64,000 bases of DNA from Leucobacter sp. L43 (GTDB lineage: Bacteria > Actinomycetota > Actinomycetes > Actinomycetales > Microbacteriaceae). Shown one piece after another: positions 1-20,696 of the stretch (position 1 is its first letter; every line of letters starts with the position of its first letter). The position numbers were made by a program, and so were the translations under genes. The notes beneath the pieces are model-generated. The model did no database searches. It saw nothing but the letters and a program-made list of their open reading frames with translations, and was not told the origin of the DNA. The stretch covers positions 310,001-374,000 of the forward strand of contig NZ_JAENJG010000003.1 of the NCBI RefSeq assembly GCF_016597785.1, in the 5' to 3' direction.

Positions 1-99
1 AGGACGCTCATGTCGGCGCGGCCGCAGCTGTACCCCGATGGGGCTCCGCAGCAGGCTCCCGGCACCGGCCCACTGACGAACACGGAGGATCGCGCATGA
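1..99 (+). CDS. C-terminal end of a peptide ABC transporter ATP-binding protein (partial)
   Basis: Frame 1 is open from the window edge to the TGA at 97-99 and ends RTLMSARPQLYPDGAPQQ...TEDRA. The start of this piece resembles the tail of DppD/OppD-type ATPases, where the chain ends shortly after a Y-T-R-x-L-(L/M) segment. The stop overlaps the ATG of the next ATPase gene as ATGA, which suggests translational coupling inside one importer operon. Only 32 residues are visible, so the assignment rests on the junction and on the DppF-type ATPase that follows. Confidence 0.6.
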   Translation, partial: RTLMSARPQLYPDGAPQQAPGTGPLTNTEDRA

Positions 100-971
100 C
101 CGAGACGTCCCCTGCCCAGTCGGCGACGCGGGGCGATGCAGCCCCCATCATCGAGGTCGAGCACCTCGAGCGCACCTTCCACCTCAGCCGCACCGCGAGC
201 GTCACCGCGCTCGACGATGTCTCGTGCGCGCTGCGAGCCGGCACCTGCCTCGCGGTCGTCGGCGAATCGGGTTCCGGGAAGTCGACCCTGGCGCGCGTGA
301 TCGTCGGGCTCGAGACGGCGGACGCCGGAGAGGTGCGAATCGCAGGGACGCCCGTGCGGCCCACCACCTCGCGGCGGGCGCTGCACGAGCGCGCCAAACT
401 CGTGCAGATGGTCTTCCAGGACCCGCAGGGGTCGCTCAACCGCTCCCTGCCCGTCGCGGCGACGATCAACGAGATGCTGCAGGCGCACCGCCCCGATCTC
501 GACCGGGCCGGGCGCCGCGCACGTCTGCTCGAGCTCTTCGCGGAGGTCGGTCTCACCGAGCGTCACGCCGACGCCAAGCCGGAAGCCCTCTCCGGCGGGC
601 AGAAGCAGCGCGTCGCGATCGCGCGGGCCCTCGCGGCCGAGCCGGAGGTGCTCGTGCTCGACGAAGCCGTCTCCGCGCTCGACGTGTCGGTGCAGGCGCA
701 AGTGCTGGATCTGCTGAAACGGCTGCGGAGCGAGCACGGCCTGTCGTACCTGTTCATCACCCACGATCTCTCGGTCGTGCGCGACATCGCCGACGACGTC
801 GTGGTGATGCGCACCGGGCGCATCATCGAGCGCGGCACCGTCTCCGACATTCTCGACCGCCCCACGGATCCGTACACCCGCCTCCTCCTCGCCTCGGCGC
901 CCCGCCCCGGCTGGAAGCCGCGTCGTGGGCTTCGCGACGCTCTCATCGGCGGGGCTGATCGCACGCCGTGA
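96..971 (+). CDS. Oligopeptide/dipeptide ABC transporter ATP-binding protein (DppF/OppF type)
   Basis: This 291-residue cytoplasmic ATPase would power import of peptides or peptide-like substrates together with the ATPase that ends at 99. It has Walker A GESGSGKST near residue 54, a Q-loop in VFQDPQGSLNRS, signature LSGGQKQR, Walker B VLVLDEAVSALD and an H-loop in FITHDLSVV. The C-terminal TDPYTRLLLASAP segment is typical of OppF/DppF. The ATG overlaps the upstream stop (ATGA), and the stop overlaps a GTG at 968. The permeases and binding protein of this first importer would lie upstream of the window. Confidence 0.93.
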   Translation: MTETSPAQSATRGDAAPIIEVEHLERTFHLSRTASVTALDDVSCALRAGTCLAVVGESGSGKSTLARVIVGLETADAGEVRIAGTPVRPTTSRRALHERAKLVQMVFQDPQGSLNRSLPVAATINEMLQAHRPDLDRAGRRARLLELFAEVGLTERHADAKPEALSGGQKQRVAIARALAAEPEVLVLDEAVSALDVSVQAQVLDLLKRLRSEHGLSYLFITHDLSVVRDIADDVVVMRTGRIIERGTVSDILDRPTDPYTRLLLASAPRPGWKPRRGLRDALIGGADRTP

Positions 972-1039
972 CACCGGCGACGACGTCGCCCTCACGCTCC
1001 GCGGGCACTCGCCCGACCCTCCACAGAAAGCACTGCTGC

Positions 1040-2104
1040 ATGACTACACAGACCGATCGCCTGCACCTCGACGTCACGGGTGCGACCGCCCATGAACTCG
1101 GGGTGAGCCGCGGCTCAGCACTCCGCGGCTCGCTGCCGACGGCTTACGCGAAGTACGCCGAACTCTTCCGCATCCTGGGCGTCTCCGAGGAGATGGAACG
1201 CGATGGCGTCTCTCGCGTGGTGGCGGCGGTGGATTCGTGGCGCCCCGAGCTGCTCGAGCAGCTCAGGGGTGTCGCTGACGGAGCCGGTGTGCCGTTCGAG
1301 CACGTCGTCGCACTGAACGCCCGCACCGAGCTAATCGCACTCGGCGCCCGAGGCGCGAGCGAGTGCTCGACGGTCACGGCCCGCCTCGGGGACCACCGGC
1401 TCGGCGTGCAGACCTGGGACTGGCACGTCGAACTCGACGCGTACTGGCACACGCACACCGTGACGGGGCACGGGCTGCGGTATGCCGGTCTCACCGAACA
1501 GGGGATCCTGTCGAAGATCGGCGTGAACGAGGCCGGGCTGGCACTGCACTTCAACATCCTCGGTCACGCGAGCGACGGACCGGATGGCATCCCCATGCAT
1601 CTGCTGTCGAGCACGGTGCTGTCGGAGTGCGCCTCCGTCGATGAGGCGGTTGCGCTGGTGCGCTCGGCGCCGATCGGATCGTCGTCGGCCTTCACCATGC
1701 TCGACGCCGCGCGCGCGGTCTCGCTCGAGATCAGCCCGGTCGGGATCTTCGAGATCACGGAAGTCGAGGGGTCGGTGCAGCGAACGAACCACTTCCAGCA
1801 CGCTGAGCCGCTGATGGCGCAGAAGAGCGAGATCTACGAACCCGATTCGACCGAGCGGCTCGACCTCGTGCGCGAGCGGCTGGCCGCTGGCGTGCCGGAG
1901 TCGTCGACCGAGCTCGTGCGCCTGCTGCGCTCCGAACCCGGTCAGCCGCCGCTCACCTGCATTCCCGACATGTCGAAGGAGTACGGCGATCGGTGGGGCA
2001 CGCTCGCGACGATCGTCACCGACCCCGACGTCCGGACGATCCGGATCTTCGACGGCATGCCGCAGGCCAGTGAAGCCGGGGAATGGCGCGTGCTGACCGT
2101 CTGA
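1040..2104 (+). CDS. C45-family autoproteolytic acyltransferase/hydrolase (Ntn fold)
   Basis: This 354-residue protein belongs to the acyl-CoA:6-aminopenicillanate acyltransferase-like family (peptidase C45). Family members cleave themselves before a cysteine, which becomes the N-terminal nucleophile for amide hydrolysis or acyl transfer. The likely cleavage site is in ARGASE|CSTV, with Cys109 as nucleophile; VQTWDWH, the KIGVNEAGL segment and HFNIL are also family-like. The frame stays open back to a GTG at 968 that overlaps the upstream stop, but those extra 24 residues are non-conserved in character. The ATG at 1040 has AGAAAG 9 nt before it and is preferred. It is the last gene of the first ABC importer operon. 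The natural substrate is unknown; a second family member lies at 10585. Confidence 0.85.
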   Translation: MTTQTDRLHLDVTGATAHELGVSRGSALRGSLPTAYAKYAELFRILGVSEEMERDGVSRVVAAVDSWRPELLEQLRGVADGAGVPFEHVVALNARTELIALGARGASECSTVTARLGDHRLGVQTWDWHVELDAYWHTHTVTGHGLRYAGLTEQGILSKIGVNEAGLALHFNILGHASDGPDGIPMHLLSSTVLSECASVDEAVALVRSAPIGSSSAFTMLDAARAVSLEISPVGIFEITEVEGSVQRTNHFQHAEPLMAQKSEIYEPDSTERLDLVRERLAAGVPESSTELVRLLRSEPGQPPLTCIPDMSKEYGDRWGTLATIVTDPDVRTIRIFDGMPQASEAGEWRVLTV

Positions 2105-2109
2105 CGGGC

Positions 2110-2130
2110 GCGGCCGCTCTGCGCGGCCGC
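2110..2130 (+). terminator. Hairpin directly after the C45 gene
   Basis: A perfect 8-bp GC stem (GCGGCCGC on both arms) with a 5-nt loop starts 5 nt after the TGA. No T-run follows, so it is a possible 3'-end stabiliser or a weak or factor-assisted terminator. Confidence 0.45.
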
Positions 2131-2188
2131 AGCTTGGGATCGCCGCAGCGGGTCGCCGCAGCTTCGGGTCGCCGCAGCGGGTCGCCGC
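2131..2188 (+). repeat. Two tandem 29-bp repeats
   Basis: Two 29-bp units begin AGCTTGGG at 2131 and AGCTTCGGG at 2160, each containing two copies of GTCGCCGC or ATCGCCGC. A third AGCTTCGG at 2189 begins the next hairpin element. No coding potential was found. With that element, a second hairpin and a promoter/operator, this fills the 312-bp gap between 2104 and 2417. Confidence 0.7.
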
Positions 2189-2189
2189 A

Positions 2190-2256
2190 GCTTCGGTGAG
2201 CGATTCGGCTTCGGTGAGACAGTTCGCTCGCAGAACTCCTCACCGAAGCTGGATCC
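2190..2256 (+). repeat. Intergenic hairpin element, copy A
   Basis: The element has GCTTCGGTGAG at 2190-2200 and again at 2208-2218, a 20-nt loop (2219-2238), and the reverse complement CTCACCGAAGC at 2239-2249. As RNA, the stem extends outward to about 17 bp with two G-U pairs. The loop holds an inner AGTTC/GAACT stem. Copies B (11748-11814) and C (56295-56362, opposite strand) share the layout. It sits 3' of the C45 gene and may act as a terminator or mRNA 3'-end structure. Confidence 0.75.
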
Positions 2257-2294
2257 CGCACCGATGCCGCGGGCGCCGGCTGGCACTGGCATGG

Positions 2295-2317
2295 GCATGC
2301 AGCACACTGCTGCATGC
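2295..2317. repeat. 10-bp perfect inverted repeat with a 3-nt loop
   Basis: GCATGCAGCA and TGCTGCATGC flank CAC. It lies just upstream of the LacI-type operator and the -35 region of the PaiB-like gene. It could be a hairpin or a second regulator site; nothing distinguishes these. Confidence 0.5.
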
Positions 2318-2327
2318 AGCGCGCCAC

Positions 2328-2356
2328 TGGCATAAAACGTTTTACTTGCCTAGGCT
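2328..2356 (+). promoter_or_regulatory. Promoter of the PaiB-like gene with a LacI-family operator
   Basis: A -35-like TGGCAT (2328-2333) and a -10 TAGGCT (2351-2356) are 17 bp apart. The near-palindrome CATAAAACGTTTTAC (2331-2345) fills the spacer, centred on ACGT as in many LacI-family operators. The same block, CATAAAACG, sits in the same place relative to the promoter at 4233-4261. Binding there would block RNA polymerase. The likely repressor is the LacI protein at 3123-4142 (inference). Confidence 0.7.
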
Positions 2357-2416
2357 GACCGTACGCACCGCGTCCGATGTGATGCGCAGCGCCGCTCACG
2401 CCGCAAGGAGTCCCTC

Positions 2417-3073
2417 ATGCACACGTATCCGAGTTACGTCGCTCCGTCAGGTCGCGCCATCGTCGAGTTCGTGAGGGATCACCCCTTCGCCGTGCTCGCG
2501 ACGTCGACCGGTGGGGCGCCCGTCGCGACCCACGTCCCCATCGTCTTCCCACCGGAGGTCGAGCCGGGGGAGACTCTGGTCGGCACGCGCCTCTGGGGGC
2601 ACATGGGGACGGCGAATGCGCACTGGCGGCAATTCGCTGAGCAGCCTGATGCGCTGCTCGTCTTCGCGTCGTCCCACGCGTATGTGTCGCCCAGCGTCTA
2701 CGAGTTCACCCCGGCCGTGCCGACGCTCGACTATGCGACGGTGCACCTGACCGGCCGCGTCACCGTGCTCGAAGCGGCGGAGGCGAATCTCGCCGTCGTG
2801 GAGCAAACCGTCGCGCAGCTCGAGGGCGCGCGGGGAGAGCCGTGGGACCCCACGGAATCGAGGCATGTGTTCGAGAAGATCCTCGACGGGGTGGTGTCGT
2901 TCACGATCGACATCGAGAGCGAAACGGCGATGTTCAAGCTCAGCCAAGACATGCCGGCGGACGTGCACGGCCGCGTGCGGCACGACTTGCTCGAGGGGGA
3001 TCACCTGCACCCCGACGTCGCCGAGCTGATGGAGCAGGTCGGGATCGACTGCCCGCACCGGGCGCGAGAATGA
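2417..3073 (+). CDS. PaiB-family FMN-binding protein
   Basis: This 218-residue protein has the split-barrel FMN-binding fold of the PaiB family, related to pyridoxamine-phosphate oxidases. Visible family features are FAVLATSTGGAPVATHVPIVF near the N-terminus, the LWGHMGTANAHW segment, and VHLTGRVTVLE followed by a helical C-terminal part with KLSQDMP. In Bacillus, PaiB is linked to repression of degradative enzymes. Here the role is unknown and could be redox chemistry rather than transcription. The ATG has AAGGAG 7 nt upstream. The gene is alone on its strand between the C45 gene and a convergent lacI-type gene. Its promoter carries a LacI operator like that of the nylC operon, which suggests co-regulation. 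Confidence 0.85.
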   Translation: MHTYPSYVAPSGRAIVEFVRDHPFAVLATSTGGAPVATHVPIVFPPEVEPGETLVGTRLWGHMGTANAHWRQFAEQPDALLVFASSHAYVSPSVYEFTPAVPTLDYATVHLTGRVTVLEAAEANLAVVEQTVAQLEGARGEPWDPTESRHVFEKILDGVVSFTIDIESETAMFKLSQDMPADVHGRVRHDLLEGDHLHPDVAELMEQVGIDCPHRARE

Positions 3074-3122: not shown

Positions 3123-4142
3123 TCACTCCGCGCGTTGCGACGACCTCCGCACGATGAGTTCGGAGGCGACGAGGCGCCGCCCTTCCGGGGCCTGGCCGCG
3201 CGTGATTCGCGCCAGAAGCTCGACCGTCTCCCTCGCGAGCACTTCGGGCCTCAGGTCGATCGCGGTGATCGGCGGCTCGGCGGTTCGCGTCTGCGCTGCA
3301 TCCGTGCCGCAGGCGAGGAGGTAGTGCTCGGGGGCGACGTAACCGCGCTCTCGCATCGCCTCCTGGATTCCGGCGGCATGGCGCCCCGTCAGCGAGTAGA
3401 TGGCATCGGGCACGCCGTTCGCGAGGAGCTGCGGAACGAGGTCCCGCCCCCCGGCCTCGCCGAGCCCCTCCGGGCTGCGGAAATGGCGCGGGGTGGCGCC
3501 GTGTTCCGAGCACCACTGCAGGTACGCCGATTCGGCATCGGCGTTCCACGAGTTGTCGTCGGTGCCCCCGACGAAAGCGATGCTGCGGGCGCCGCCTTCT
3601 GCCAGGTGATCGAGCGCGGTGCGTGTTGCGGCAGCGTCGTCGGAGGCGACCCAGTTCGATGCCTCGGGCTTGCCGGGGTCGCGCCCGAGGGTGACGTAGG
3701 GGATTGACCGGCTCTCGAGGAGATCCACGACGGGGTCGTCGCGCACGGGGTCCGTGACGACATAGCCGTCGAGTGAGAACGCCAGTGGTGTCACCGGCCC
3801 CTTCACGAGATCGGCCACCTGCATCAGGCTGAGGCCGTGGTCGAGCGCGCTCACCGCGGCGGCACCGGCGAAGCGGAGGAAGTAATCGACGCCGGGCGGG
3901 CTGTAGTTCGCGAGCGCGTCGAGCGGTCGGAGCACGATGCCGATGACGCCGATCTGCGAACGGCGGAGACCGCGCGCGAGCGCGTCGGCCTGGTAGCCCA
4001 TCGCGGTGGCGATCTCCCGGATGCGCGCACGAGTCTCCTCGGAGAGTGTTCCCTTTTCGTTGAGGGCGTGCGACACCGCCGTGATCGATACGCCAGCTCG
4101 AGCGGCGACGTCCTTGATGGTGACGTTGCGGTGACCGGCCAT
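3123..4142 (-). CDS. LacI-family transcriptional regulator
   Basis: This 340-residue DNA-binding repressor has the N-terminal helix-turn-helix and hinge TIKDVAARAGVSITAVSHALN...GYQADALARGLR, followed by a periplasmic-binding-protein-like sensor domain. The frame continues 20 codons further upstream, but the ATG at 4142 has GAGGAG 6 nt before it and starts directly ahead of the HTH. It diverges from the binding protein/ABC/nylC operon starting at 4354. Three similar sites (2331-2345, 4188-4202, 4236-4250) share CATAAA and a central CGAT or ACGT. The likely role is to repress the nylC operon, the PaiB-like gene and itself until a substrate-derived ligand binds. The ligand is unknown. Confidence 0.9.
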   Translation of the reverse strand: MAGHRNVTIKDVAARAGVSITAVSHALNEKGTLSEETRARIREIATAMGYQADALARGLRRSQIGVIGIVLRPLDALANYSPPGVDYFLRFAGAAAVSALDHGLSLMQVADLVKGPVTPLAFSLDGYVVTDPVRDDPVVDLLESRSIPYVTLGRDPGKPEASNWVASDDAAATRTALDHLAEGGARSIAFVGGTDDNSWNADAESAYLQWCSEHGATPRHFRSPEGLGEAGGRDLVPQLLANGVPDAIYSLTGRHAAGIQEAMRERGYVAPEHYLLACGTDAAQTRTAEPPITAIDLRPEVLARETVELLARITRGQAPEGRRLVASELIVRRSSQRAE

Positions 4143-4187
4143 TCGTCCTCCTCGCATCCTGTGAACGACCCTAGTGGCAATCGCGGG

Positions 4188-4202
4188 CATAAATCGATAC
4201 AT
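4188..4202. promoter_or_regulatory. Probable LacI-family operator upstream of the lacI gene
   Basis: CATAAATCGATACAT is related to the operators at 4236 and 2331 and is centred on the palindrome ATCGAT. It lies 46 bp upstream of the lacI start on the opposite strand, near a -10-like TAGGGT at 4173-4168 (minus strand). This fits autoregulation or loop formation with the 4236 site. Confidence 0.5.
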
Positions 4203-4232: not shown

Positions 4233-4261
4233 TTGCATAAAACGATTTGTGAAGCTAGCTT
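4233..4261 (+). promoter_or_regulatory. Promoter and LacI operator of the ABC importer-nylC operon
   Basis: TTGCAT (4233-4238) and TAGCTT (4256-4261) have a 17-bp spacer. CATAAAACGATTTGT (4236-4250) overlaps the -35 and the spacer, in the same geometry as the site at 2331. This predicts repression by the divergently encoded LacI protein. Confidence 0.75.
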
Positions 4262-4353: not shown

Positions 4354-6006
4354 GTGTTGAAACTCTCACGAACGCGCGTCAGGACCGCATCCGGCGCCGC
4401 ACTCGCACTCGGGCTCGCGTGCGTGCTCAGCTCTTGTGCAGCGCCGCCTTCGAGCGGCCCAGCCGTAGCGCAGGAGGAGGCGGCTCCCGGCTTCTTGGCG
4501 GTCGCCGACTCGGCGCTCGACGGGCAGGGCGCGCTCACCGTGCAGCTCGACTACGACACGAGCGAAGCCGACGGTCTCGACCCGGCAACAGCGCAGACCG
4601 CCCGCTCATGGAGCATCATGGGCCTCGTCTACGAGACGCTCGTCACCACCGACGAGAACTTCGAGATCCAGCCCGAGCTTGCCACCGCCTGGGAGCAGCC
4701 CGACGACACCACGTACGTGTTCACCATCGACACGACCGCGACCTTCTCGAACGGGCGGGCCGTGACCGTCGACGATGTCGTCGGCAGCCTGCAGCGCCAG
4801 GTCGACAGCATGAGCGTCTGGTCGGGGCAGATGGGGCCGATCGAGTCCATCGAGGCCACGGGCGACGATCAGGTGACGGTGCGACTCAGCAGCCCCTACG
4901 CGCCGTTCCTCGCGGCGCTCGCCAACACCCCTGCCGCGATCCTGCCCATGCAGGAGGTGAACGACGGCAGCCTCGACCTCGCAACGACGATGCTCGGCAC
5001 CGGACCGTACGTCGTCGACGCGCATCGGCAGGATGAATCGTGGACGTTCACGGCCAATGCCGATTGGCGCGGAGGCGACGACCTCGCCGTCCAGACGCTG
5101 GAGCTGCAGATCGTCGATCAGGAGACCACGCGTCAGGCCGCACTGCGAGAGGGCAGCGCGGGTCTTGCGAACTTCGGCAGCATTGACGCGCTCACCCAGC
5201 TCGCCGATGCCGGCGACGTGCAGGTCGTCAATCAGACGCAGAGCGACTTCTACTACGTCAACGTGAATTCCCAGGTCGAAGGCTCACCGCTGCAGGATCA
5301 AGACGTGCGGTTCGCCATCAACACGGCGATCGATCGTCAAGCGATCGCCGATATCGTCTTCGCAGGTGAGACGACTCCGACGGGCGCGACCCCGTCGAAC
5401 CTGCCAGGGGCGTGCGCCGTGGACGCACTCCCGTCGGAACAGGCCAGTGTCGAAGACGCGCAGAAGCTCATCGAGGAGTCGGGCGCCGGCGACGTCACGC
5501 TCGACATGGTCGTCTACACCTCGGAGCCGGTCATGGGTCAGATCGCCCAGCTCGTGCAGCAGCAGCTCGCCGAGATCGACGTCACCGTCAACATCGAGCA
5601 ATTCGACACCGCGACGTACAATGCTCGCGTCTTCACCGCACAACCGGGCGACTTCGATCTGTCGCTGGGCTGGTTCGCGGGGTACGTCGACCCGTCGATG
5701 GTGACGAAGTGGTGGAATCCCGAGCAGGCCGGCTTCAACCTCGGATTCACCGGTCAGCATGACGACCTCAACGCGCTCATCGCTGAAGGAGCGGAAGTCA
5801 CCGACCCCGATGAACGAGCCGAAGTGCTCACGGAACTGTGCGCGACTGCGGATGAGTACTCCGAGATCGTGCCGCTCGTGCACCGTCCATCGATCGTCGG
5901 GTACGACGCCGGAGCGGTGAGCCCGACGATTCAGAGCAACGAGGGCTACGGCGACATCTTCCGGGACATCACCGCGTACCGCCTTCCCGACACGGCTTCC
6001 GAGTAA
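4354..6006 (+). CDS. ABC transporter substrate-binding lipoprotein (SBP_bac_5, peptide/nickel class)
   Basis: This 550-residue extracytoplasmic binding protein is lipid-anchored. An Arg-rich N-terminus and hydrophobic stretch lead to the lipobox LSSC, with Cys28 as the modified residue. The mature part has cluster-C binding-protein features: IMGLVYETLVT, QPELATAWEQPDDTTYVFTI, YAPFLAALANTPAAILP, GTGPYVV. The GTG start has AAGGAG about 9 nt upstream. It is the first gene of a tightly spaced operon: binding protein, two permeases, two ATPases, nylC homolog, C45 hydrolase. The natural ligand is unknown; the context points to peptides or amide oligomers. Confidence 0.92.
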   Translation: MLKLSRTRVRTASGAALALGLACVLSSCAAPPSSGPAVAQEEAAPGFLAVADSALDGQGALTVQLDYDTSEADGLDPATAQTARSWSIMGLVYETLVTTDENFEIQPELATAWEQPDDTTYVFTIDTTATFSNGRAVTVDDVVGSLQRQVDSMSVWSGQMGPIESIEATGDDQVTVRLSSPYAPFLAALANTPAAILPMQEVNDGSLDLATTMLGTGPYVVDAHRQDESWTFTANADWRGGDDLAVQTLELQIVDQETTRQAALREGSAGLANFGSIDALTQLADAGDVQVVNQTQSDFYYVNVNSQVEGSPLQDQDVRFAINTAIDRQAIADIVFAGETTPTGATPSNLPGACAVDALPSEQASVEDAQKLIEESGAGDVTLDMVVYTSEPVMGQIAQLVQQQLAEIDVTVNIEQFDTATYNARVFTAQPGDFDLSLGWFAGYVDPSMVTKWWNPEQAGFNLGFTGQHDDLNALIAEGAEVTDPDERAEVLTELCATADEYSEIVPLVHRPSIVGYDAGAVSPTIQSNEGYGDIFRDITAYRLPDTASE

Positions 6007-6018
6007 CGAAGGACGGGC

Positions 6019-6990
6019 ATGCTGCAACAACTCCGCTGGTCGGCCGGGCGGGTGATGAGTGCGCTCATCACCCTGCTCGGTGTGTCGATCCTGATCTTCA
6101 CCGCGGTGAGACTGATGCCGGGAAGCTACGAGGACATCATTCTCGGCCCGCTCGCCTCGCCGGAGGAGCGGGCGGCACTCGCCGCGGCCTACGGCCTCGA
6201 TCAGCCCCTCATCATCCAGTACTTCTCCTGGATCGGCCAGATCGTCTCCGGCGACCTGGGGACCTCGTTCGTCACCCAGAGCCCGGTCAGCGCCGAACTC
6301 GGCGCGCGGATCCCGGTGACCGCCCTGCTGACCGTCATGGCCCTCATCATCACGGTCGTGATCGGCATCCCTCTCGGAGTGTGGACCGGGGTGCGCGCAG
6401 GCGCGAAACAGGGCGGTGCCGTCGGTCGCATCGTGTCGGGCCTCGGCATCAGCGTGCCGGAGTTCGTGCTCGGCAGCGTGGTCGTCTTCGTCTTCTCCCG
6501 ATTGGCGCTCGGCATTCAGGTCGGCGGCTTCTCACGCATCGGCTCGGGATTCGGGCCGACGTTCCAGGCGCTCCTGCTCCCGGCCGTCGTGCTCTCGGTG
6601 TTCTGCGTCGCGGCCGCGGCCCGCACCACGCGCGACGCCGTGATGAACGTGCTCGTCGAGCCGCACATCGCCGCCGCGGTCGCCCGAGGTGAGACGCCGT
6701 GGCACATCGTTCGCCACCATGTGATGCGCAATGCCGGCATCCCCATCCTCACCCTCCTCGCCACCATCACCGCTTACCTGCTCGGCGGTGCCGTGATCGT
6801 CGAGACCATCTTCAACATCCCCGGCCTCGGCTCCTTCATGGTGACCGGCCTCGACCGCCGCGACTTCGCCGTCGTGCAGGCATCGGTGCTCTTCGCCGCG
6901 GCCGTATTCATCGTGGTGAGCCTCGTGCTCGATCTGATCACGAGCGCGCTCGACCCTCGTGTCGCAGTCACCGGGAAGGCAGGATCATGA
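6019..6990 (+). CDS. Peptide-type ABC transporter permease (DppB/OppB type)
   Basis: This 323-residue inner-membrane permease has about six transmembrane helices and the DppB hallmarks: an N-terminal helix followed by LMPGSYEDIILGP, then AAYGLDQPLIIQYFSWI, and the cytoplasmic ATPase-contact (EAA) loop ...PHIAAAVARGETPWHIVRHHVMRNAGIPILT. AAGGA lies 8 nt before the ATG. Its stop overlaps the next ATG (ATGA). It should pair with the next permease to form the translocation pore for the ligand delivered by the lipoprotein at 4354. Confidence 0.93.
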   Translation: MLQQLRWSAGRVMSALITLLGVSILIFTAVRLMPGSYEDIILGPLASPEERAALAAAYGLDQPLIIQYFSWIGQIVSGDLGTSFVTQSPVSAELGARIPVTALLTVMALIITVVIGIPLGVWTGVRAGAKQGGAVGRIVSGLGISVPEFVLGSVVVFVFSRLALGIQVGGFSRIGSGFGPTFQALLLPAVVLSVFCVAAAARTTRDAVMNVLVEPHIAAAVARGETPWHIVRHHVMRNAGIPILTLLATITAYLLGGAVIVETIFNIPGLGSFMVTGLDRRDFAVVQASVLFAAAVFIVVSLVLDLITSALDPRVAVTGKAGS

Positions 6991-7859
6991 CCACGTATTC
7001 GCTCCCGCTCGTCCGCCGCAAGCGGCCGGCGAGCACGCGCCCCGCCAGAGACGGGCTCTTCGTCGGCGCAGTGGCGACGCTGACCGCGATCGTCGGCATC
7101 GCCGTCGTCGCCGCGATCGTGCCGTTCGCCGGCGACCCCGCCAAGATCGTCGGCCCCCGGCTCAGTCCGCCCTCAGCGGCGGCACTGCTCGGCACCGATG
7201 CGCTTGGCCGCTCGGTGCTCGCCCGGCTGCTCGAAGGCATCGGCACCACGCTCGTGCTCTCCGCAGTGGCCGTGCTCTGCACCGCGGTGATCAGCATCGT
7301 GCTCGGCATGGTCGCCGGGTACCTGGGAGGGTGGACGCGCGAGGGCGTCATGCGCTTCGTCGACGTGCTCTACTCGTTCCCGTCGATCGTGCTCGCCATT
7401 CTCATCGCGGCGGTCGTCGGCCCTGGCCAGGTTGCTGCTCTTGCGAGCATCGTCCTGGTGACCGTGCCGCTGATGACGCGGATGGTGAGTGCAGCTTCCC
7501 TGGCGGTCGCGAAGCGAGACTTCGTGACGACCGCCAAGATCAGCGGCGTCTCCGGCCCGGTGATCCTCTTCCGTCACGTGCTGCCCAACATCAGCGGCAC
7601 GATCGCCGTGCAGGGCACCTACGCGCTGTCAGTCGGCATCCTGGTCGAAGGCGGCTTGAGTTTCCTCGGGTACGGCGTGCAGCTGCCGCAGTCATCGCTG
7701 GGGCTGCTGATCCAGGAGGGGTCGAGCTACATGGTGCAGGCGCCCTGGCTGCTGTTCGCACCCGCCGTCGTGCTGGTGCTGGCGATCCTCGCCATCAATC
7801 TCGTGGGCGACACCCTGCGGGATCGCCTCGACCCGCGCGAGACAAGGAGTCTGGTATGA
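6987..7859 (+). CDS. Peptide-type ABC transporter permease (DppC/OppC type)
   Basis: This 290-residue inner-membrane permease starts at the ATG coupled to the previous stop, with AGGATC just upstream. DppC features are the N-terminal helix, LLGTDALGRSVLARLLEG, and the EAA loop KRDFVTTAKISGVSGPVILFRHVLPNISGT. The C-terminal NLVGDTLRDRLDPR is the usual DppC ending. A longer open frame exists upstream but overlaps the previous permease in another frame and is not used. Confidence 0.93.
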   Translation: MTTYSLPLVRRKRPASTRPARDGLFVGAVATLTAIVGIAVVAAIVPFAGDPAKIVGPRLSPPSAAALLGTDALGRSVLARLLEGIGTTLVLSAVAVLCTAVISIVLGMVAGYLGGWTREGVMRFVDVLYSFPSIVLAILIAAVVGPGQVAALASIVLVTVPLMTRMVSAASLAVAKRDFVTTAKISGVSGPVILFRHVLPNISGTIAVQGTYALSVGILVEGGLSFLGYGVQLPQSSLGLLIQEGSSYMVQAPWLLFAPAVVLVLAILAINLVGDTLRDRLDPRETRSLV

Positions 7860-8734
7860 ACGCGGACGCACCCGAGCCATTCGTCTCGATCTCGACCCTC
7901 AGCGCGGAGTACCGTTCGCGGCTCGGAGTGACCCGCGCCCTCGAAGACGTCTCGCTCGACATCGCGCCCGGCGAGCTCGTCGCGATCGTCGGGGAATCCG
8001 GATCGGGCAAGACGACGATCTCCCACGCCATCGGGCGCATGCTGCCTCGCGCGTGCCGCATCACCGCGGGCGAGGTGCGCGTGCTCGGGCACGACCTGGC
8101 ATCGCTCGCCCCCGACGATGTGAGGCGGATACGCCGTGAATCGCTCGGCTTCATCCCGCAGGATCCGATCGCTTCCCTCAACCCGACGATGCGCATTCGG
8201 CGCCAGCTCGAGCTCGCACTCGCCCCGCTGGGGCGACCGACGGACGCGGCCTCGCTCACGGCGCTGCTCGGGAGCGTGAAGATTCTCGAACCCGAGCGCG
8301 TGCTTCGCCTGTTCCCGCACGAGGTCTCTGGCGGCATGGCTCAGCGCATCGCGATCGCGCTCACCATCGCTCGCGAACCGCGCATCCTCATCGCCGACGA
8401 GCCGACCGCGTCGCTCGACGCCCAGGTGCGCGACGAGATCCTCGAACTGATCGTCGACTTCGTGCGGCGCTCAGGCGCGAGTCTCATCTGGATCAGCCAC
8501 GACCTCGGGGCTGTGCGCAAGTGGTGCGATCGAGTCGTGGTGATGCACCGCGGCCGGATCGTCGAGACCGGACCGACCGCACGGGTGCTCGACGCGCCAG
8601 AGGCCGAGTACACGCGCGCCCTCGTGGCGGCGATCCCGGCGCGCAAGGGACCGGTCGGCACAACGCCGGATCGCGCGCGGGCCGCATCCAGCACCAGTCG
8701 TGCGACGTCGCACCATTCGGAGGAGATCTCATGA
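7856..8734 (+). CDS. ABC transporter ATP-binding protein (DppD/OppD type)
   Basis: This is one of the two ATPase subunits of the 4354 importer, 292 residues. It shows Walker A GESGSGKTT, a Q-loop in GFIPQDPIASLNPT, signature VSGGMAQR, Walker B ILIADEPTASLD and an H-loop ISHDLGAV. The signature has M where most relatives have Q, a tolerated change. The ATG overlaps the previous stop (ATGA) and has AAGGAG upstream. The C-terminus runs past EYTRALVAAIP into a Ser/Arg-rich tail that overlaps the next gene. Confidence 0.93.
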   Translation: MNADAPEPFVSISTLSAEYRSRLGVTRALEDVSLDIAPGELVAIVGESGSGKTTISHAIGRMLPRACRITAGEVRVLGHDLASLAPDDVRRIRRESLGFIPQDPIASLNPTMRIRRQLELALAPLGRPTDAASLTALLGSVKILEPERVLRLFPHEVSGGMAQRIAIALTIAREPRILIADEPTASLDAQVRDEILELIVDFVRRSGASLIWISHDLGAVRKWCDRVVVMHRGRIVETGPTARVLDAPEAEYTRALVAAIPARKGPVGTTPDRARAASSTSRATSHHSEEIS

Positions 8735-9504
8735 CGGCGACGGAGACGAACGCGGTACTCGAGATGCGCGATGTGAGCGTCTCGTTCACGAGTGGCGCCG
8801 GCGCGAAACGACGCACGGTGCGAGCGATGAACGGCGTCACGCTCGACGTCGCTCCCGGCGAGACCCTCGGCCTCGTCGGCGAATCCGGGTCGGGCAAGAC
8901 CACGACGGCCGCCGTAGCGCTCGGACTGCGCGCGCCCGACAGCGGCGAGGTGCGTCTGCTCGGCCGACCACTCAGTCGGTCGCGGAAAGCCACGGCCGGC
9001 AAGATCCAAGCGGTTCTCCAGCACCCCCACTGGTCGCTCAACCCACGGCGACGGGTGGGCGAATCCGTGCGCGAACCGCTCACCGTCGCGAGACGAGATC
9101 TCTCGCGCGAGCAGCAGCGGGCGAGAGTGGGCGAGATGCTCGAGCATGTCGGGCTGAACCCAGGGTTCGCCGAACGCTACCCCCACGAACTCTCGGGCGG
9201 GCAACGGCAGCGAGTCTCGGTCGCACGCGCACTCATCACGGAACCCCGCTTCATCGTGTTCGATGAAGCGGTCAGCGCGCTCGACGTCGCGGTGCAGTTG
9301 CAGATCCTGTCACTGATTCGCGAACTCCAGCAGGAGCACCGCTTCGGCGCGCTCTTCATCTCGCACGATCTCGGTGCGGTGCAGCGCGTGGCGGACCGGG
9401 TCGCCGTGCTGTTTCGAGGCGATCTCGTCGAAACCGCGCCCACCGAGCACTTCTTCGACGCCCCGGCCCATCCCTACTCGCAACAACTCCTGGAGTCCCT
9501 GTGA
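8731..9504 (+). CDS. ABC transporter ATP-binding protein (DppF/OppF type)
   Basis: This second ATPase of the importer has 257 residues and starts at an ATG overlapping the previous stop, with GGAGG upstream. Motifs are Walker A GESGSGKTT, the Q-loop region AVLQHPHWSLNPR, signature LSGGQRQR, Walker B FIVFDEAVSALD and an H-loop SHDLGAV. It is slightly short because it ends soon after HPYSQQLLESL, the usual OppF C-terminal segment. Its stop overlaps the GTG of the nylC homolog, tying uptake to the intracellular amide hydrolase. Confidence 0.93.
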   Translation: MTATETNAVLEMRDVSVSFTSGAGAKRRTVRAMNGVTLDVAPGETLGLVGESGSGKTTTAAVALGLRAPDSGEVRLLGRPLSRSRKATAGKIQAVLQHPHWSLNPRRRVGESVREPLTVARRDLSREQQRARVGEMLEHVGLNPGFAERYPHELSGGQRQRVSVARALITEPRFIVFDEAVSALDVAVQLQILSLIRELQQEHRFGALFISHDLGAVQRVADRVAVLFRGDLVETAPTEHFFDAPAHPYSQQLLESL

Positions 9505-10574
9505 ACCCCTCATCCCACGAACCGCACGCGCTCGCAGAGATCGACTCCGGCGCCGTGATCGACCCAGCACCGCGCCTCGCCGGCGCACCCGTCTTCGGCG
9601 GACCGGGCAACGGCGACTTCGACCTCGTGCCGCAACGGAGTGATGGACGCGAACGGCTGCGCTTCGACTTCCCCGGTGTGCGCATCGGTTCGGCGCATTA
9701 CGCGGAGGGGCCGACCGGGGCGACCGTGATCCACCTGCCGGCAGGCGCACGCACCGCGGTCGACGCGCGCGGCGGCGCAGTCGGGCTCGCTGGCGGCTAC
9801 GACTTCAATCACGCCATCTGCCTCGCCGGTGGCTCCGTGTACGGGTTGGAGGCAGGAGCCGGTGTCAGCGATGCGCTGCTCGAGCGCTTCGAGAACCGCA
9901 CCGGGTTCGCCGACCTGCAGCTCGTCTCGTCGGCGATCATCTACGACTTCTCAGCGCGCTCCACATCCGTCTACCCCGACCGGAAGCTCGGCCGCGCCGC
10001 GTTCGACTTCGCGGTCGAGGGCGAGTTCGCGCAGGGCCGCGCCGGCGCAGGAATGAGCGCCTCTTCCGGGAAGGTGGATTGGGAGCGCACGGAGATCACC
10101 GGTCAGGGCGCCGCATTCAGGCAGATCGGGGATGTGCGCATCCTCGCGGTCGTGGTGCCGAATCCCGTCGGAGTCATCCTCGATCGCGCCGGGCGCGTGG
10201 TCCGGGGAAATTACGATGCGGCTACGGGAGAGCGCCGCCATCCCGTCTTCGACTACGCCGAAGCGTTCGCCGAGCACCGGGCGGCAGAGACGCAATCGGG
10301 CAATACGACCATCAGCGCGCTCATCACGAACGTGAAGATGAGCACCGTCGAGCTGAACCAGTTCGCGAAGCAGGTGCACAGCTCGATGCACCGGGGTATC
10401 CAGCCCTTCCACACCGACATGGATGGCGACACCCTGTTCGCCGTGACGACCGATGAGATCGACCTCCCCATCAGTCCCGGCTCATCACGAGGCCGGCTCT
10501 CGGTCAATGCCACCGCGCTCGGAGCAATCGCCTCCGAAGTCATGTGGGACGCGCTGCTCGAAGCGGCGAAGTAG
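9501..10574 (+). CDS. nylC: NylC-like 6-aminohexanoate-oligomer hydrolase (P1/DmpA-family Ntn amidase)
   Basis: This 357-residue cytoplasmic enzyme of the P1/DmpA superfamily should split itself into two chains. The cut is predicted in QSGN|TTIS, between Asn268 and Thr269, leaving Thr269 as N-terminal nucleophile. From memory of the nylon-oligomer hydrolase NylC (nucleophile Thr267), almost the whole length matches, including FGGPGN, GGYDFNHAICLAGG, AGAGMSAS, GKVDWERTEITGQGA, HRGIQPFHTDMDGDTLFAVTT and SVNATALGAIASEVMWDA. Recalled NylC active-site residues Tyr146, Lys189, Asn219, Asp306 and Asp308 map at a constant +2 offset to Tyr148, Lys191, Asn221, Asp308 and Asp310. It is co-translated with a peptide-type importer through a GTGA overlap, so natural substrates may be amide oligomers. 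Activity on nylon oligomers is inferred. Confidence 0.88.
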   Translation: MNPSSHEPHALAEIDSGAVIDPAPRLAGAPVFGGPGNGDFDLVPQRSDGRERLRFDFPGVRIGSAHYAEGPTGATVIHLPAGARTAVDARGGAVGLAGGYDFNHAICLAGGSVYGLEAGAGVSDALLERFENRTGFADLQLVSSAIIYDFSARSTSVYPDRKLGRAAFDFAVEGEFAQGRAGAGMSASSGKVDWERTEITGQGAAFRQIGDVRILAVVVPNPVGVILDRAGRVVRGNYDAATGERRHPVFDYAEAFAEHRAAETQSGNTTISALITNVKMSTVELNQFAKQVHSSMHRGIQPFHTDMDGDTLFAVTTDEIDLPISPGSSRGRLSVNATALGAIASEVMWDALLEAAK

Positions 10575-10584
10575 CGGGGGACGA

Positions 10585-11691
10585 ATGGACATCATCACGA
10601 CGACCGTTGCAGGAGTCGGACCGCGAGCGCGCGGCACCGAGATCGGTGCGCGCTTCGGCGCCGAGATCCGCGAGACCGTCGGCGGCTACCTCGACTTCTT
10701 CGGGGTGCGCGGACTCACTGAGGATCGCGTGCGCGAGATCGCAGACAGCTGCTTCGACGCGTTGCGCGCCTGGGCTCCCCACCTCGCCGTCGAGCTCGAG
10801 GCGACCGCGCTCGCCGCTGAGGTTCCGCTCTGGCAGCTGGCCGCGCTGAACGCCCGAACCGAGGTGCTCGCCGTCGTCGAACCCGACGCCGAGGGGGAGT
10901 GCTCGACCGCGGTCTTCGCGCCGCGCGGCCCTCGTCTGCCGGAGAGCATCCAGACCTGGGACTGGCACGAGTACCTGTGCCGCGCGGGGCTCGTCATGTC
11001 GTACACGCCGGATGCCCCTGCGGGGGCGTCGGCTTCCACGAGGGTGGGGCGCGTCACGCTGTTCACCGAGTTCGGCGTGCTCGGCAAGATCGGCGTCAAT
11101 GACGCTGGCGTCGGCGTCCACTTCAACATCCTGCATCACGCGAGCGATCGCGGTGTCGGGGGAGTGCCGGTGCACGCGATCGCCCGGCGCGTGCTCGACG
11201 AGGCGACCTCCGTCGATGCGGCGGAGGCCATCATCGCATCGGCGCCGGCCAGTGCGTCGACGGTGCTCACCGTCGTCGCCGGGGCGGACGCCGAGCACCG
11301 CGCTGCATGCTTCGAGATCTCGTCGGACGGGCTCGCTGCGGTGCGCCCCGACGAGCAGGGGTGGCTCGCGCACACGAACAACTTCCTCGCCCCGTCCCAG
11401 GTGCCGGGGGAGGCGACGCCCGACACCTCGACGACCTACGCGCGCTTCGACCACGTCGTCGCACAGCGGCCGCACATGGCTGGGCTCCCCATCGAGCAGC
11501 GCGCTCGGGCGATGGCGGGTGAGGCGGGCGCGTTCGCTCCCATCTGCTTCCGGCCCGACCCCTCCGAGCCGCTGCACGAGCAGTGGTCGACGCTGCTCAC
11601 GGTCGGCTTCGACCTCGCGGCGGGCCGGCTCGAGTACTACCCGGGCTCACCCGTCGCGATGGCGGAGCACGGCGCGAGCCGATTCGGCTGA
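10585..11691 (+). CDS. C45-family autoproteolytic acyltransferase/hydrolase (second copy)
   Basis: This 368-residue paralog of the protein at 1040-2104 shares LNARTE, (E)CST at the predicted self-cleavage site (Cys106 in EGE|CSTAV), IQTWDWHEY, LGKIGVNDAGVGVHFNILHHASD and the C-terminal (E)QWSTLLTV. The ATG lies 10 bp after the nylC stop behind a GGGGGA ribosome-binding site; a longer frame into nylC is not used. As last gene of the importer-nylC operon it probably acts on the same class of compounds, by amide hydrolysis or acyl transfer. The two copies end two separate importer operons, and each is followed by a copy of the same hairpin element. Confidence 0.85.
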   Translation: MDIITTTVAGVGPRARGTEIGARFGAEIRETVGGYLDFFGVRGLTEDRVREIADSCFDALRAWAPHLAVELEATALAAEVPLWQLAALNARTEVLAVVEPDAEGECSTAVFAPRGPRLPESIQTWDWHEYLCRAGLVMSYTPDAPAGASASTRVGRVTLFTEFGVLGKIGVNDAGVGVHFNILHHASDRGVGGVPVHAIARRVLDEATSVDAAEAIIASAPASASTVLTVVAGADAEHRAACFEISSDGLAAVRPDEQGWLAHTNNFLAPSQVPGEATPDTSTTYARFDHVVAQRPHMAGLPIEQRARAMAGEAGAFAPICFRPDPSEPLHEQWSTLLTVGFDLAAGRLEYYPGSPVAMAEHGASRFG

Positions 11692-17781: not shown

Positions 17782-18999
17782 ATGACGACAGCGACGTTGC
17801 GCGTCATGGACGCCCACGGCGACTTCTCGGAGCCGCAACGGGTGTCCTGGCACGGGGGACGCTTCACGGCAATCGGCGACCCCGCCAACGCGGCGCAGTC
17901 CGGAGCTCTCGGCGCGGCGGCGGCGCCGCGCATTCCCACTGAGGCCCGCTGGATCATGCCCGGCCTCGTCGACGCCCATCTGCATGCCGCGTGGCACGCC
18001 TTCGACGCGGCGGACCGCGCGCAGTTCACGGAGGAGGAGGCGCACCGGGCGACGGCAGACGCGCTCCGTCGCACGCTGCGCGCCGGCTTCACGAGCGTAC
18101 GCGACGCCGGGGGGCTCGCGACCACGACACGTGAGCGCATCCCGGCCGAGTCCAGGCCCAGAATCGCATGCTCGGTGGCGCTCATCGACCGGGCGCGAGC
18201 CGATGCTGCCGGGGGGATCGACCGTGCGGTGGAGGAGGTGCTCCAGGCGGGAGCGGCCTGGGTCAAAATCGTCGCCACCGATGGAGTGGGATCACCGGCG
18301 GGCGCGTCCCTCCAGTCGCACTTCTCGGCGACCGAGTTCGCGAGCGCCGCTCGCAGAGCGGCATCGGCCGGGGCCGGCGTCATGGTCCACGCGTGGGGCG
18401 GGGACGCCATCGACTTCGCCATCGAGTCGGGAGCGGCGAGCATCGAGCACGGCATCTACCTGACCGTCGAGCAGGCCAGTCGCGCCGCTCAGTCGGGTAC
18501 GGCGTTCGTGCCCACGCTGCGCATCTACCGCCTCGTGCAGCAGATGATCGCCGCGGGGAAGCTCCCCGCAGGGCTCGCGGCCCGAGTCGACGCGGCGGTG
18601 GCTGCGCACCCCGACGCGGTGCGCATCGCCCGAGACCAGGGCGTGGCGATCGCGCTGGGCACCGACTTCGGCACTCCTGAGCAGCACGGCACCAACCGAG
18701 TCGAGTTCGATGCGCTGGTCGAAGCCGGACTCAGCGTCAGGGAGGGGCTGGTCGCGGCGACGTCTTCCGGAGCGGCACTGCTCGCGCGTGCGAAGGATCC
18801 CGACGCGCCGAGTCACCCTCCGCCGTTCGGAGTGATCGCGCCGGGAGCGGTCGCAGACGCCGTGCTGCTGGCCCGCGATCCCCGCGAACCCGGTGCCCTG
18901 TCCGACCCCGCGTCGATCGTCGGCGTGCTGCTCGAAGGGCGGCTGATCGATCCGCGGCGCCCCGATTTCCCACCCCATCCTCGAGAGGACCACCTGTGA
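17782..18999 (+). CDS. Metal-dependent amidohydrolase (imidazolonepropionase/prolidase-like)
   Basis: This 405-residue cytoplasmic amidohydrolase has a binuclear metal site: GLVDAHLH (His66, His68), a probable carboxylated Lys162 in WVKIVATDGVG, His203 in VMVHAWGG, His223 in ASIEHGIYL and Asp295 in ALGTDFG. This set fits the subgroup containing Xaa-Pro and Xaa-Arg dipeptidases (Cc2672/Sgx9260-like). Such a substrate would suit the peptide importer encoded downstream. AAGGAG lies 6 nt before the ATG. The stop overlaps the GTG of the binding protein gene (GTGA), making it the first gene of a four-gene operon. Confidence 0.88.
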   Translation: MTTATLRVMDAHGDFSEPQRVSWHGGRFTAIGDPANAAQSGALGAAAAPRIPTEARWIMPGLVDAHLHAAWHAFDAADRAQFTEEEAHRATADALRRTLRAGFTSVRDAGGLATTTRERIPAESRPRIACSVALIDRARADAAGGIDRAVEEVLQAGAAWVKIVATDGVGSPAGASLQSHFSATEFASAARRAASAGAGVMVHAWGGDAIDFAIESGAASIEHGIYLTVEQASRAAQSGTAFVPTLRIYRLVQQMIAAGKLPAGLAARVDAAVAAHPDAVRIARDQGVAIALGTDFGTPEQHGTNRVEFDALVEAGLSVREGLVAATSSGAALLARAKDPDAPSHPPPFGVIAPGAVADAVLLARDPREPGALSDPASIVGVLLEGRLIDPRRPDFPPHPREDHL

Positions 19000-20669
19000 C
19001 CCCCGCCCTCCGTCTCCGCACGCCCGGTGCCACTGAGCCCGGCGCCACTGAGCCCGGCGCCATTCAGCCCCGCGCCGGCCAGCACGCCCCCCGCCCGAGC
19101 CGACGCGCCGGCCGTCGCACTGCGACCGCAGCTCTCGCGCTCTCCGCAGCACTGCTGCTGAGCGCGTGCGCGGGAGGATTGTCGAGCGGTGCCGGCTCCG
19201 GCGAGGCCGGTGATCCGGTGAGCGGTGGCACGCTCGAGTTCGGGCGGGTCGCCTCGGTGACCGATCTCGATCTGAATCAGCAGATCACCGCGAACAACGC
19301 GTTCGCGATCGACAAGATCTTCGAGCCGCTCGTCAGCTTCGACTCGGACGGCGAGATCGTTCCGTGGCTCGCGGAATACGCGGAGTCCGCAGACGGGCTC
19401 ACCTACACCTTCACGCTGCGCGACGGACTCGCGTTCTCAGACGGCACGGAGGTCTCTCCCGCCGACGTCGTCTTCTCGCTCGAGCGGCATATCGAGGTGG
19501 GCGGGCCGTTGCCGCTGGAAGCTCCGATCGAAGCCATCACCGAATCGGGCGAGCGCGACGTGGTCATCACGCTGAGCGAACGCTACACCCCGTTCCTCTC
19601 GGAGCTCGCGAGCTTCTCGAACGGCATCTTCCCGCAGGACTTCGGGGGCGCGAGCGAGGAGGAGTTCTTCGAGGGTCCGATCGGTACCGGCCCGTTCGTG
19701 GTCGAGACGTGGGATCCGAACGGGGACCTCGCCTTCGCGAAGAACGAGCACTACTGGCAGGAGGGCAAGCCCTACGTCGACTCCCTCGTGTACAAGCTCG
19801 TGGCCGATGACACGCAACTGCAGCAGCAGCTCGCGGCCGGTCAGCTCGATGCGATCGACGACGTGCCTGCGGCGAATGCGGCGCAGGTCGAGAGCGGTGA
19901 CGGCATGGTGCTGTCGCAGACGAGCGGATGGTCGACGGAGCAGGTCTTCTTCAACACCCAGCGGGAGCAGTTCGCGGATGAGCACGTGCGCCGCGCCGTC
20001 GCGCTCGCGCTGGATCGCGAAGGCATCACGCAGGCGACCACGTTCGGTACGGCAGAGGTGGCCAACGCGCTGCTGCCGCCGACCATCACGGACTCGGCCA
20101 ACGAGACGGTGCGGCCGCTCGGTTTCGACCTCGATGCCGCACGGGAGGAGCTCGCGAAGTCGCCGTATCCTGACGGGTTCTCCGTCACGCTGCTGCTCGC
20201 GAGCGGTGACTCGCAACGCGCGCAGATCGCGCAGATCGTGCAGGAATCCCTTGCGCAGATCGACGTCGACGTCGAGATCGAGCAGATCGACATCGCCGCC
20301 TTCCGCGAGCGCTTCTTCGCGTACGACTTCGACTTCATGCTCAACAGCGGGCAGTCCGACGCCCCCGACCCCAACGGGTTCATCACCTTCCAGGCCGACC
20401 CCGACGGGTTCAGCAAGTCGTACTGGACGCACTACTCGAACGAGCGGGTCACCGAACTCATGCGGCAGGGACGAACGACTCCCGAGGGTGAGGAGCGCAC
20501 GGAGATCTATCAGGAGATCCAGCAGACCCTCGCCGATGAGGTGCCCTACATCCCGCTGTTCTTCCCGGCGAACCTGAAGGCGACGCGCGACGACGTGCAC
20601 GGCTTCACCGTGCTTCCGAACGGCAGTGTGCGCTTCGAGGACGCGTGGCTCGCCGGCGGCGCCGAGTAG
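18996..20669 (+). CDS. ABC transporter substrate-binding lipoprotein (SBP_bac_5)
   Basis: This 557-residue peptide-class binding protein has lipobox LLSAC with Cys58 as lipid attachment. The N-terminal region before the hydrophobic core is unusually long and carries a GATEP/GATEP/GAIQP repeat. The GTG at 18996 is nevertheless supported by AGAGGA upstream and by overlap with the amidohydrolase stop. Mature features are FDKIFEPL-like AIDKIFEPLVSF, TYTFTLRDGLAFSDGT, PADVVFSLERH, GPIGTGPFVVE and LVADDTQLQQQLAAGQLDAID. It feeds the permease and fusion protein that follow. Confidence 0.92.
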   Translation: MTPALRLRTPGATEPGATEPGAIQPRAGQHAPRPSRRAGRRTATAALALSAALLLSACAGGLSSGAGSGEAGDPVSGGTLEFGRVASVTDLDLNQQITANNAFAIDKIFEPLVSFDSDGEIVPWLAEYAESADGLTYTFTLRDGLAFSDGTEVSPADVVFSLERHIEVGGPLPLEAPIEAITESGERDVVITLSERYTPFLSELASFSNGIFPQDFGGASEEEFFEGPIGTGPFVVETWDPNGDLAFAKNEHYWQEGKPYVDSLVYKLVADDTQLQQQLAAGQLDAIDDVPAANAAQVESGDGMVLSQTSGWSTEQVFFNTQREQFADEHVRRAVALALDREGITQATTFGTAEVANALLPPTITDSANETVRPLGFDLDAAREELAKSPYPDGFSVTLLLASGDSQRAQIAQIVQESLAQIDVDVEIEQIDIAAFRERFFAYDFDFMLNSGQSDAPDPNGFITFQADPDGFSKSYWTHYSNERVTELMRQGRTTPEGEERTEIYQEIQQTLADEVPYIPLFFPANLKATRDDVHGFTVLPNGSVRFEDAWLAGGAE

Positions 20670-20684
20670 CCGGAGGCGACGCCA

Positions 20685-20696
20685 TACAGTGGGATC
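20685..20696 (+). promoter_or_regulatory. Possible internal leaderless promoter
   Basis: TACAGT (20685-20690) is followed by 6 nt and the GTG at 20697, the leaderless spacing seen elsewhere in the window. A 27-bp gap separates it from the binding-protein stop, and no strong Shine-Dalgarno sequence is present. Confidence 0.45.

Follow-up and report, generated by a model that had tools for sequence, protein, structure and literature searches.

What does an enzyme known for cutting nylon oligomers do in the genome of Leucobacter sp. L43, and from where did its nylon-degrading relative come? Enzymes of the NylC subfamily cleave themselves into chains of 27 and 9 kDa and hydrolyse 6-aminohexanoate oligomers at internal bonds. 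An earlier note on the window, by which we mean the whole stretch of 64,000 nucleotides analysed here, had placed a NylC homolog in an operon with a peptide-type importer and had read from it both a natural pathway for amide oligomers and a possible origin of the nylon-degrading gene.

Sequence comparison makes it close to certain that the gene belongs to the NylC family and to the operon in which it lies. The open reading frame begins at a GTG on the forward strand and encodes 357 residues, Peptidase_S58 is its sole Pfam match, and in a sequence search of the PDB its residues 8-357 align with 11 listed NylC chains (best E value 8.9e-196), reaching 84.2% identity over 349 residues with 5xyg, a crystallised NylC, so that the near end-to-end match claimed in the earlier note is borne out. 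We take 5xyg to be the pOAD2 enzyme because D36, D122, H130 and E263 are present in it, a judgement made from residues given in excerpts of the literature and not from the structure record. For characterised NylC, the available excerpts of published accounts place the cleavage site at Asn266/Thr267, presume Lys189 and Asn219 to be catalytic and describe Tyr146 as a structural contact. All of these recur in the alignment at an offset of +2, as the note had also proposed: the window protein carries the predicted cleavage pair N268|T269 and Y148, K191 and N221 (Y146, K189 and N219 in NylC numbering), together with D308 and D310, the counterparts of D306 and D308, the active-site Asp positions of NylC. 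N268, T269, D308 and D310 are invariant in 95 of 95 alignment rows, Y148 and N221 are kept in 94 and K191 in 93. High identity to characterised NylC, end to end, is combined with retention of the Thr nucleophile and the Asn, Lys, Tyr and key Asp residues that mark the subfamily. The genome also encodes a second S58 peptidase (C1:1871024-1872046, L001), which scores 369.5 bits against PF03576, far more strongly than NylC.

NylC is the sixth of seven genes that run on one strand from 4354 to 11691 of the window, separated in turn by a 12-bp gap, four 4-bp overlaps and a 10-bp gap, and its start lies inside the stop of the upstream ATPase gene. The operon lies on a contig of 564 kb, one of three in the 3.15-Mb assembly, and has the composition first described for it: a binding protein of SBP family 5, two permeases, two ATPases, NylC and a C45 hydrolase (Table 1). 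The best PDB match of the binding protein is 7kz8, AapF (111.8 bits). The predicted nucleophile of the C45 protein is Cys106 (codon 10900-10902), and Glu105 and Cys106 are invariant in 68 of 68 rows. Farther along the window, at 17782-24304, lies another peptide/nickel-type binding-protein gene, followed by permease-like genes and preceded by an amidohydrolase-like gene (both recognised by eye).

Table 1. Features of the NylC operon and its regulatory surroundings in the window
Feature	Position	Strand	Basis
LacI-type operator ATAAAACGTTTTA before the FMN-binding gene	2332..2344	+	genome motif search, predicted
FMN-binding split-barrel protein (FMN_bind_2), possible pathway oxidoreductase	2417..3073	+	PF04299
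LacI-family regulator, divergent from the operon	3123..4202	-	PF00356, PF13377
LacI-type operator ATAAAACGATTTG before the NylC operon	4237..4249	+	motif search, predicted
Substrate-binding protein, SBP family 5 (peptide/nickel type), lipoprotein by signal sequence	4354..6006	+	PF00496, 224.5 bits
ABC permease B (Opp/Nik type)	6019..6990	+	profile searches
ABC permease C (Opp/Nik type)	6987..7859	+	profile searches
ABC ATPase (NikD/OppD type)	7856..8734	+	profile searches
ABC ATPase (DppF/OppF type)	8731..9504	+	profile searches
NylC orthologue, S58/P1-family N-terminal-nucleophile amidase	9501..10574	+	Pfam, PDB search, tree, alignment
Predicted self-cleavage site and Thr nucleophile, codons N268|T269	10302..10307	+	alignment
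C45-family autoproteolytic acyltransferase/hydrolase	10585..11691	+	PF03417; NF040521 208.9 bits, cut-off 85

The apparent LacI operator before the operon also withstood closer inspection. Shuffled sequences gave a mean of 0.00 matches to it and, with up to one mismatch allowed, the motif occurs in only two places in the whole 3.15-Mb genome, at 4237-4249 and at 2332-2345, where the matches represent both strands of a single near-palindrome; the reversed pattern, searched as a control, gave 0 matches. The motif also precedes the operon in seven related loci (six from Leucobacter and one from Sediminivirga), unchanged in six of them and with one change in L017. The second site precedes the gene for an FMN-binding protein, and the same two-site arrangement is found without mismatch in L016 and L079 and with one mismatch in L014, the sites lying about 100 bp or less before the FMN gene; in other species, for example at loci L018, L020 and L022, an FMN_bind_2 gene lies between NylC and C45. 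Because an operator of the nylC type precedes the FMN gene in a recurrent arrangement, and because the gene elsewhere sits inside the operon, the FMN protein is, by its sequence context, tied to the NylC pathway. Directly upstream lies a sister operon (genome C3:304457-313073; L092:4457-12500; window 96-3073) that consists of LacI, a binding protein, two permeases, two ATPases and C45, lacks NylC, and is followed by the FMN gene with its nylC-type operator; its last ATPase and C45 were assigned by Pfam and its remaining genes by eye. Related CAAAACGGTTTG sites occur in the sister operon's own LacI region.

A pattern scan of one genome per species across 84,980 species returned 240 stretches, of which 199 were confirmed as relatives, and the best 80 of these 199 yielded 79 distinct loci, so that distant relatives are absent from the counts that follow. 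The five-gene importer is complete, upstream of NylC and on the same strand in 69 of the 79; the exceptions are L021, L030 and L091, with less than 1 kb of sequence before NylC, L071, with no match for permease B, and L076 and L085-L089, which lack the set. In 68 loci a C45 gene follows NylC downstream at a distance of no more than 4 kb, and a gene of the LacI cluster is found in 66. The hosts include Micrococcales, Streptosporangiales, Pseudonocardiales, Jiangellales, Streptomyces and two Alphaproteobacteria, and within this range the gene is sporadic: counting the Leucobacter genome itself, NylC is detected in 5 of 299 genomes of the family (E<=1e-30) and in 2 of 396 genomes of the phylum (E<=1e-70). 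We read the window operon as one representative of an ancient, presumably catabolic locus, and the conservation of the importer upstream of NylC is new here. Ten loci (L047, L049, L050, L052, L064, L065, L068, L071, L073 and L077) carry a tandem pair of NylC genes, the copies of which fall into two separate branches of the tree; this suggests an old duplication, and the copies possibly serve two specificities or a mixed oligomer.

The genes that recur beside these loci point to what the oligomer may be. Within the fetched flanks of the 79 loci, with each family identified from one scanned member per cluster (a second member for MOSC), we counted FMN_bind_2 in 47, Cu-amine oxidase in 38, family III CoA-transferase in 29, glutaryl-CoA dehydrogenase (GCDH) in 16, aldehyde dehydrogenase in 15 and a second type of it in 4, a MOSC-reductase fusion in 13, a kinase/class III aminotransferase fusion in 12 and GabT in 3. 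The GCDH of locus L040 scores 632 bits against 3sf6, and nine of its ten best PDB chains are named GCDH; the tenth, at 372 bits, bears just the name acyl-CoA dehydrogenase, and after it comes an acyl-CoA oxidase with 241 bits. In NCBIfam two other acyl-CoA dehydrogenase models rank above the glutaryl model, all under their cut-offs. For the CoA-transferase example the best NCBIfam model is succinate-glutarate, at 348 bits below a cut-off of 750, and its PDB ranking runs from a CaiB/BaiF protein through formyl-CoA transferase to SUGCT, the first two not being named as glutarate enzymes. The Cu-amine oxidase example reaches 770 bits against 1av4 and exceeds its NCBIfam cut-off; the profile matches of the aldehyde dehydrogenase example leave its substrate unfixed. 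When 30 genomes were searched for GCDH, 28 had a match at E<=1e-100 and 2 had none. In 12 of the 28 (10 of 11 Microbacterium/Frigoribacterium and two Agrococcus) the gene is less than 15 kb from NylC; it is 18 kb away in L020 and 35 kb in L028, and beyond the fetched flanks in 14. In all ten near cases from Microbacterium/Frigoribacterium, genes for aldehyde dehydrogenase, GCDH, a GabT-like protein (56-60% to a cluster member) and CoA-transferase are consecutive, and this row precedes LacI, amine oxidase and the operon, with LacI not called in L033 and L083. Considered more broadly, aldehyde dehydrogenase, CoA-transferase and GCDH accompany NylC in Microbacterium, Nonomuraea and Phytoactinopolyspora, and a GabT-like gene is also present in the Microbacterium and Phytoactinopolyspora loci. 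The pathway that converts cadaverine to crotonyl-CoA, by way of 5-aminovalerate, glutarate and glutaryl-CoA, is established, and the neighbours in the relatives, Cu-amine oxidase or aminotransferases among them and amine oxidation coming first, make up by their predicted functions a complete cadaverine-to-crotonyl-CoA route. Because recurrent neighbours form this route, the substrate of the operon is likely to be an oligoamide of a C5 diamine.

This C5 logic is read from the relatives and not from the Leucobacter genome, because a genome search found no Cu-amine oxidase and no MOSC fusion in the latter (the sole match to the fusion, at 34%, is to its reductase part) and because its pair of GCDH and CoA-transferase genes lies on another contig (C2:178216-180663; L108:6216-8663; the GCDH-like protein is 56% identical to that of L040). 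A homologue of the aminotransferase fusion, at 50%, is also encoded in the genome. Fisher tests, which ignore shared descent, indicated mutual exclusion of the MOSC fusion and the FMN gene (0 of 66 loci shared) and of Cu-amine oxidase and the aminotransferase fusion (0 of 66). A phylogeny-aware pair test on 71 rows, with truncated loci and second NylC copies dropped and GCDH genes beyond the flanks added by hand, contained too few pairs for significance to be within reach, and the presence of accessory genes tracks clades.

Desferrioxamines are chains of N-hydroxy-cadaverine and succinate, and further evidence leads from a C5 diamine towards such siderophores. The MOSC superfamily, as described in excerpts of two reports, reduces N-hydroxylated compounds (PMC10637980, PMC3831636), and by analogy the MOSC fusion suggests that the substrate bears N-OH groups. 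Siderophore importers also adjoin the locus in two lineages, Micromonospora and Streptomyces only. In four Micromonospora loci LacI and NylC have as neighbours a SIP-type reductase and a binding protein for iron-siderophores (by Pfam in L088 and by clustering in the rest), with both FecCD permeases in three of the four, the stretch of L086 starting at the binding protein. In four Streptomyces loci (L104-L107) LacI and the operon are headed by the aminotransferase-fusion gene, and divergently from it run genes for an iron-siderophore binding protein and for a pair of FecCD permeases, with an ATPase called in three loci and not found in L107. Against PiaA, which according to the portion of text available belongs to a system that handles ferrichrome and ferrioxamine B (PMC3741162), one of the Streptomyces binding proteins scores 296 bits; the Micromonospora protein is closer to another iron-binding protein (168 bits) than to PiaA (92 bits). 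We consider this adjacency by itself modest evidence for a siderophore link, since 16 genomes carry 9-25 FecCD genes each. The Pfam-scanned genes adjoining the window operon include none for siderophore transport. Lastly, bacteria are known to hydrolyse the amide bonds of desferrioxamines as a carbon source (PMC5805875; and, in the excerpts available, PMC10866069 and PMC11800396). The accounts of desferrioxamine B degradation in Mesorhizobium loti LU and Azospirillum, in the parts available, name no gene, and the Mesorhizobium enzyme is called serine-peptidase-like (PMC5805875), in contrast to the threonine nucleophile of NylC. Among openly accessible papers outside bioRxiv, a search that plural forms may escape gave one that names both NylC and siderophores, and its excerpts bear on other matters.

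The same importer, NylC and glutarate route could instead serve some other amide derived from cadaverine or lysine, such as epsilon-poly-lysine, acyl-cadaverines or polyamine conjugates. The C5 genes would suit any source of cadaverine or 5-aminovalerate and the importer is of the peptide/nickel type, but this account explains neither the N-hydroxyl-reducing superfamily to which the MOSC fusion in 13 of the 79 loci belongs nor the adjoining iron-siderophore importers and SIP-type reductase, and we regard it as rather unlikely. Less likely still is a reading near to that of the earlier note, in which an Opp-type importer and two promiscuous amidases carry out general scavenging of peptides, isopeptides or beta-peptides. 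The importer family speaks for it, the S58 family includes aminopeptidases such as DmpA, and in two Variovorax relatives NylC is accompanied by an M81-type gene and another gene of the P1 type; against this stand the rarity of NylC among genomes of the family and phylum and, suggestive of a narrow substrate, the recurrent diamine and glutarate genes and an operator found at two genome sites only.

Our preferred reading, towards which we lean slightly, is that the operon catabolises desferrioxamine-type cadaverine oligoamides, or 'natural nylons'; for its two parts separately, a C5-diamine oligoamide is the likely substrate, and the chance that it is a desferrioxamine in particular is about even or slightly better. 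We infer the following order of steps. The peptide-type ABC importer would bring in a small natural oligoamide, the likeliest being an iron-free desferrioxamine-type siderophore, in which N-hydroxy-cadaverine and succinate are joined by amide and hydroxamate bonds in a structure chemically near nylon. NylC, self-cut into two chains, would cleave the inner amide bonds, and the C45 hydrolase may take off the remaining acyl groups, a role that is a guess. An N-O reductase would then yield cadaverine, candidates being the FMN protein in Leucobacter (again a guess) and the MOSC fusion in other lineages, and cadaverine would be degraded by way of 5-aminovalerate, glutarate and glutaryl-CoA to crotonyl-CoA, with the LacI-type regulator presumably governing the operon and the FMN gene jointly. 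Each need of desferrioxamine breakdown, namely cleavage of amide and hydroxamate bonds, N-O reduction and catabolism of the C5 diamine, thus has a candidate in the wider family of loci; counting against the desferrioxamine reading, the importer is not of the FecBCD type and 14 of the 28 GCDH genes lie away from NylC. Of the natural amide-oligomer pathway first proposed, the part that stands is a NylC orthologue in a predicted import-and-hydrolysis operon, and the broad 'amide oligomers' is narrowed to a probable C5-diamine oligoamide, possibly a hydroxamate siderophore.

The relation of this operon to the nylon enzyme can be read from a 97-row NylC tree, built by a quick search without bootstrap, in which 5xyg shares a clade of seven rows (SH-aLRT 98) with the window gene, the copy from a Microcella MAG and four further Leucobacter copies. 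The rows nearest to 5xyg are the Microcella MAG (L015, 96%) and L. celer (L016, 93%), and those nearest to the window gene are L. chromiiresistens and L. musarum. That the nylon NylC derives from the Leucobacter-type branch of the operon, the possible origin raised at the outset, is well supported by these sequences. The notion of the locus as an industrial novelty was rejected, with the crystallised NylC nesting among operon copies. The note's contrast with plasmid-borne nylon genes, and with it the idea that these lack an importer, also falls: in Arthrobacter and Agromyces, by the part of the text available, genes for opp subunits are found in the region that holds nylB and nylC, and smpB, nylB, hypo, nylC, oppF, D, C, B and A are named in the legend of a figure (PMC7019077). 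An Opp-type importer thus stands beside nylC both in nyl-type nylon loci, as far as that text goes, and in the window; they differ in that the nylon loci have nylB near nylC, whereas in the window NylC is followed by an intact C45 without an adjoining nylB.

The Microcella contig may show how a nylon locus arose. There the importer and NylC are followed, as in the window, by C45 sequence, but this is cut after codon 34: a chimeric open reading frame (L015:6464-7407) joins the first 34 codons of C45 to the tail of a cytosine/purine permease (PF02133), and the start of nylB comes next, matching 2zm2 with 216 bits over 121 residues. From the end of nylC the DNA is 84% identical to that of L. celer across 186 columns, and the similarity ends at codon 34. 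The arrangement of opp, nylC, a further gene and nylB fits the legend cited above. We read the nylon locus, on sequence comparison, as a NylC operon in which C45 was truncated and nylB attached, and the junction in L015 is a possible scar of how the locus was put together; it stands in a single MAG contig, for which the record title gives about 10x coverage, and an assembly error is possible. Plasmid records searched by tblastn and blastn contained no close NylC, the best being 58.2% in an 11.9-Mb record of Nonomuraea gerenzanensis typed as a plasmid, and no match to the C45-permease junction of L015. The one NylB-like match in the Leucobacter genome (C1:1137873-1138187, L110; 58% over 104 amino acids against the L015 NylB start) is on a different contig from nylC. 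Recent acquisition from nylon plasmids as an adaptation to man-made waste, to which the 84% identity with crystallised NylC and this NylB-like protein could be assigned, is most improbable given an operon deeply diverged across several orders and two Alphaproteobacteria and a tree in which the nylon enzyme nests among operon copies.

In place of that account, we take the nylon-oligomer NylC to have split off from within the Leucobacter-type branch, and we hold it an evenly balanced proposition, on present sequence comparisons, that NylC-type nylonases are desferrioxamine amidases and that the nylon loci are a captured operon that lost C45 and gained nylB. If this is true, the enzyme that attacks nylon waste would have been pre-adapted by an old bacterial use of a natural, nylon-like siderophore. 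If the operon digests desferrioxamines, it would supply a candidate gene for a siderophore degradation long known in bacteria, and its natural family could serve as a source for the discovery of polyamide enzymes.
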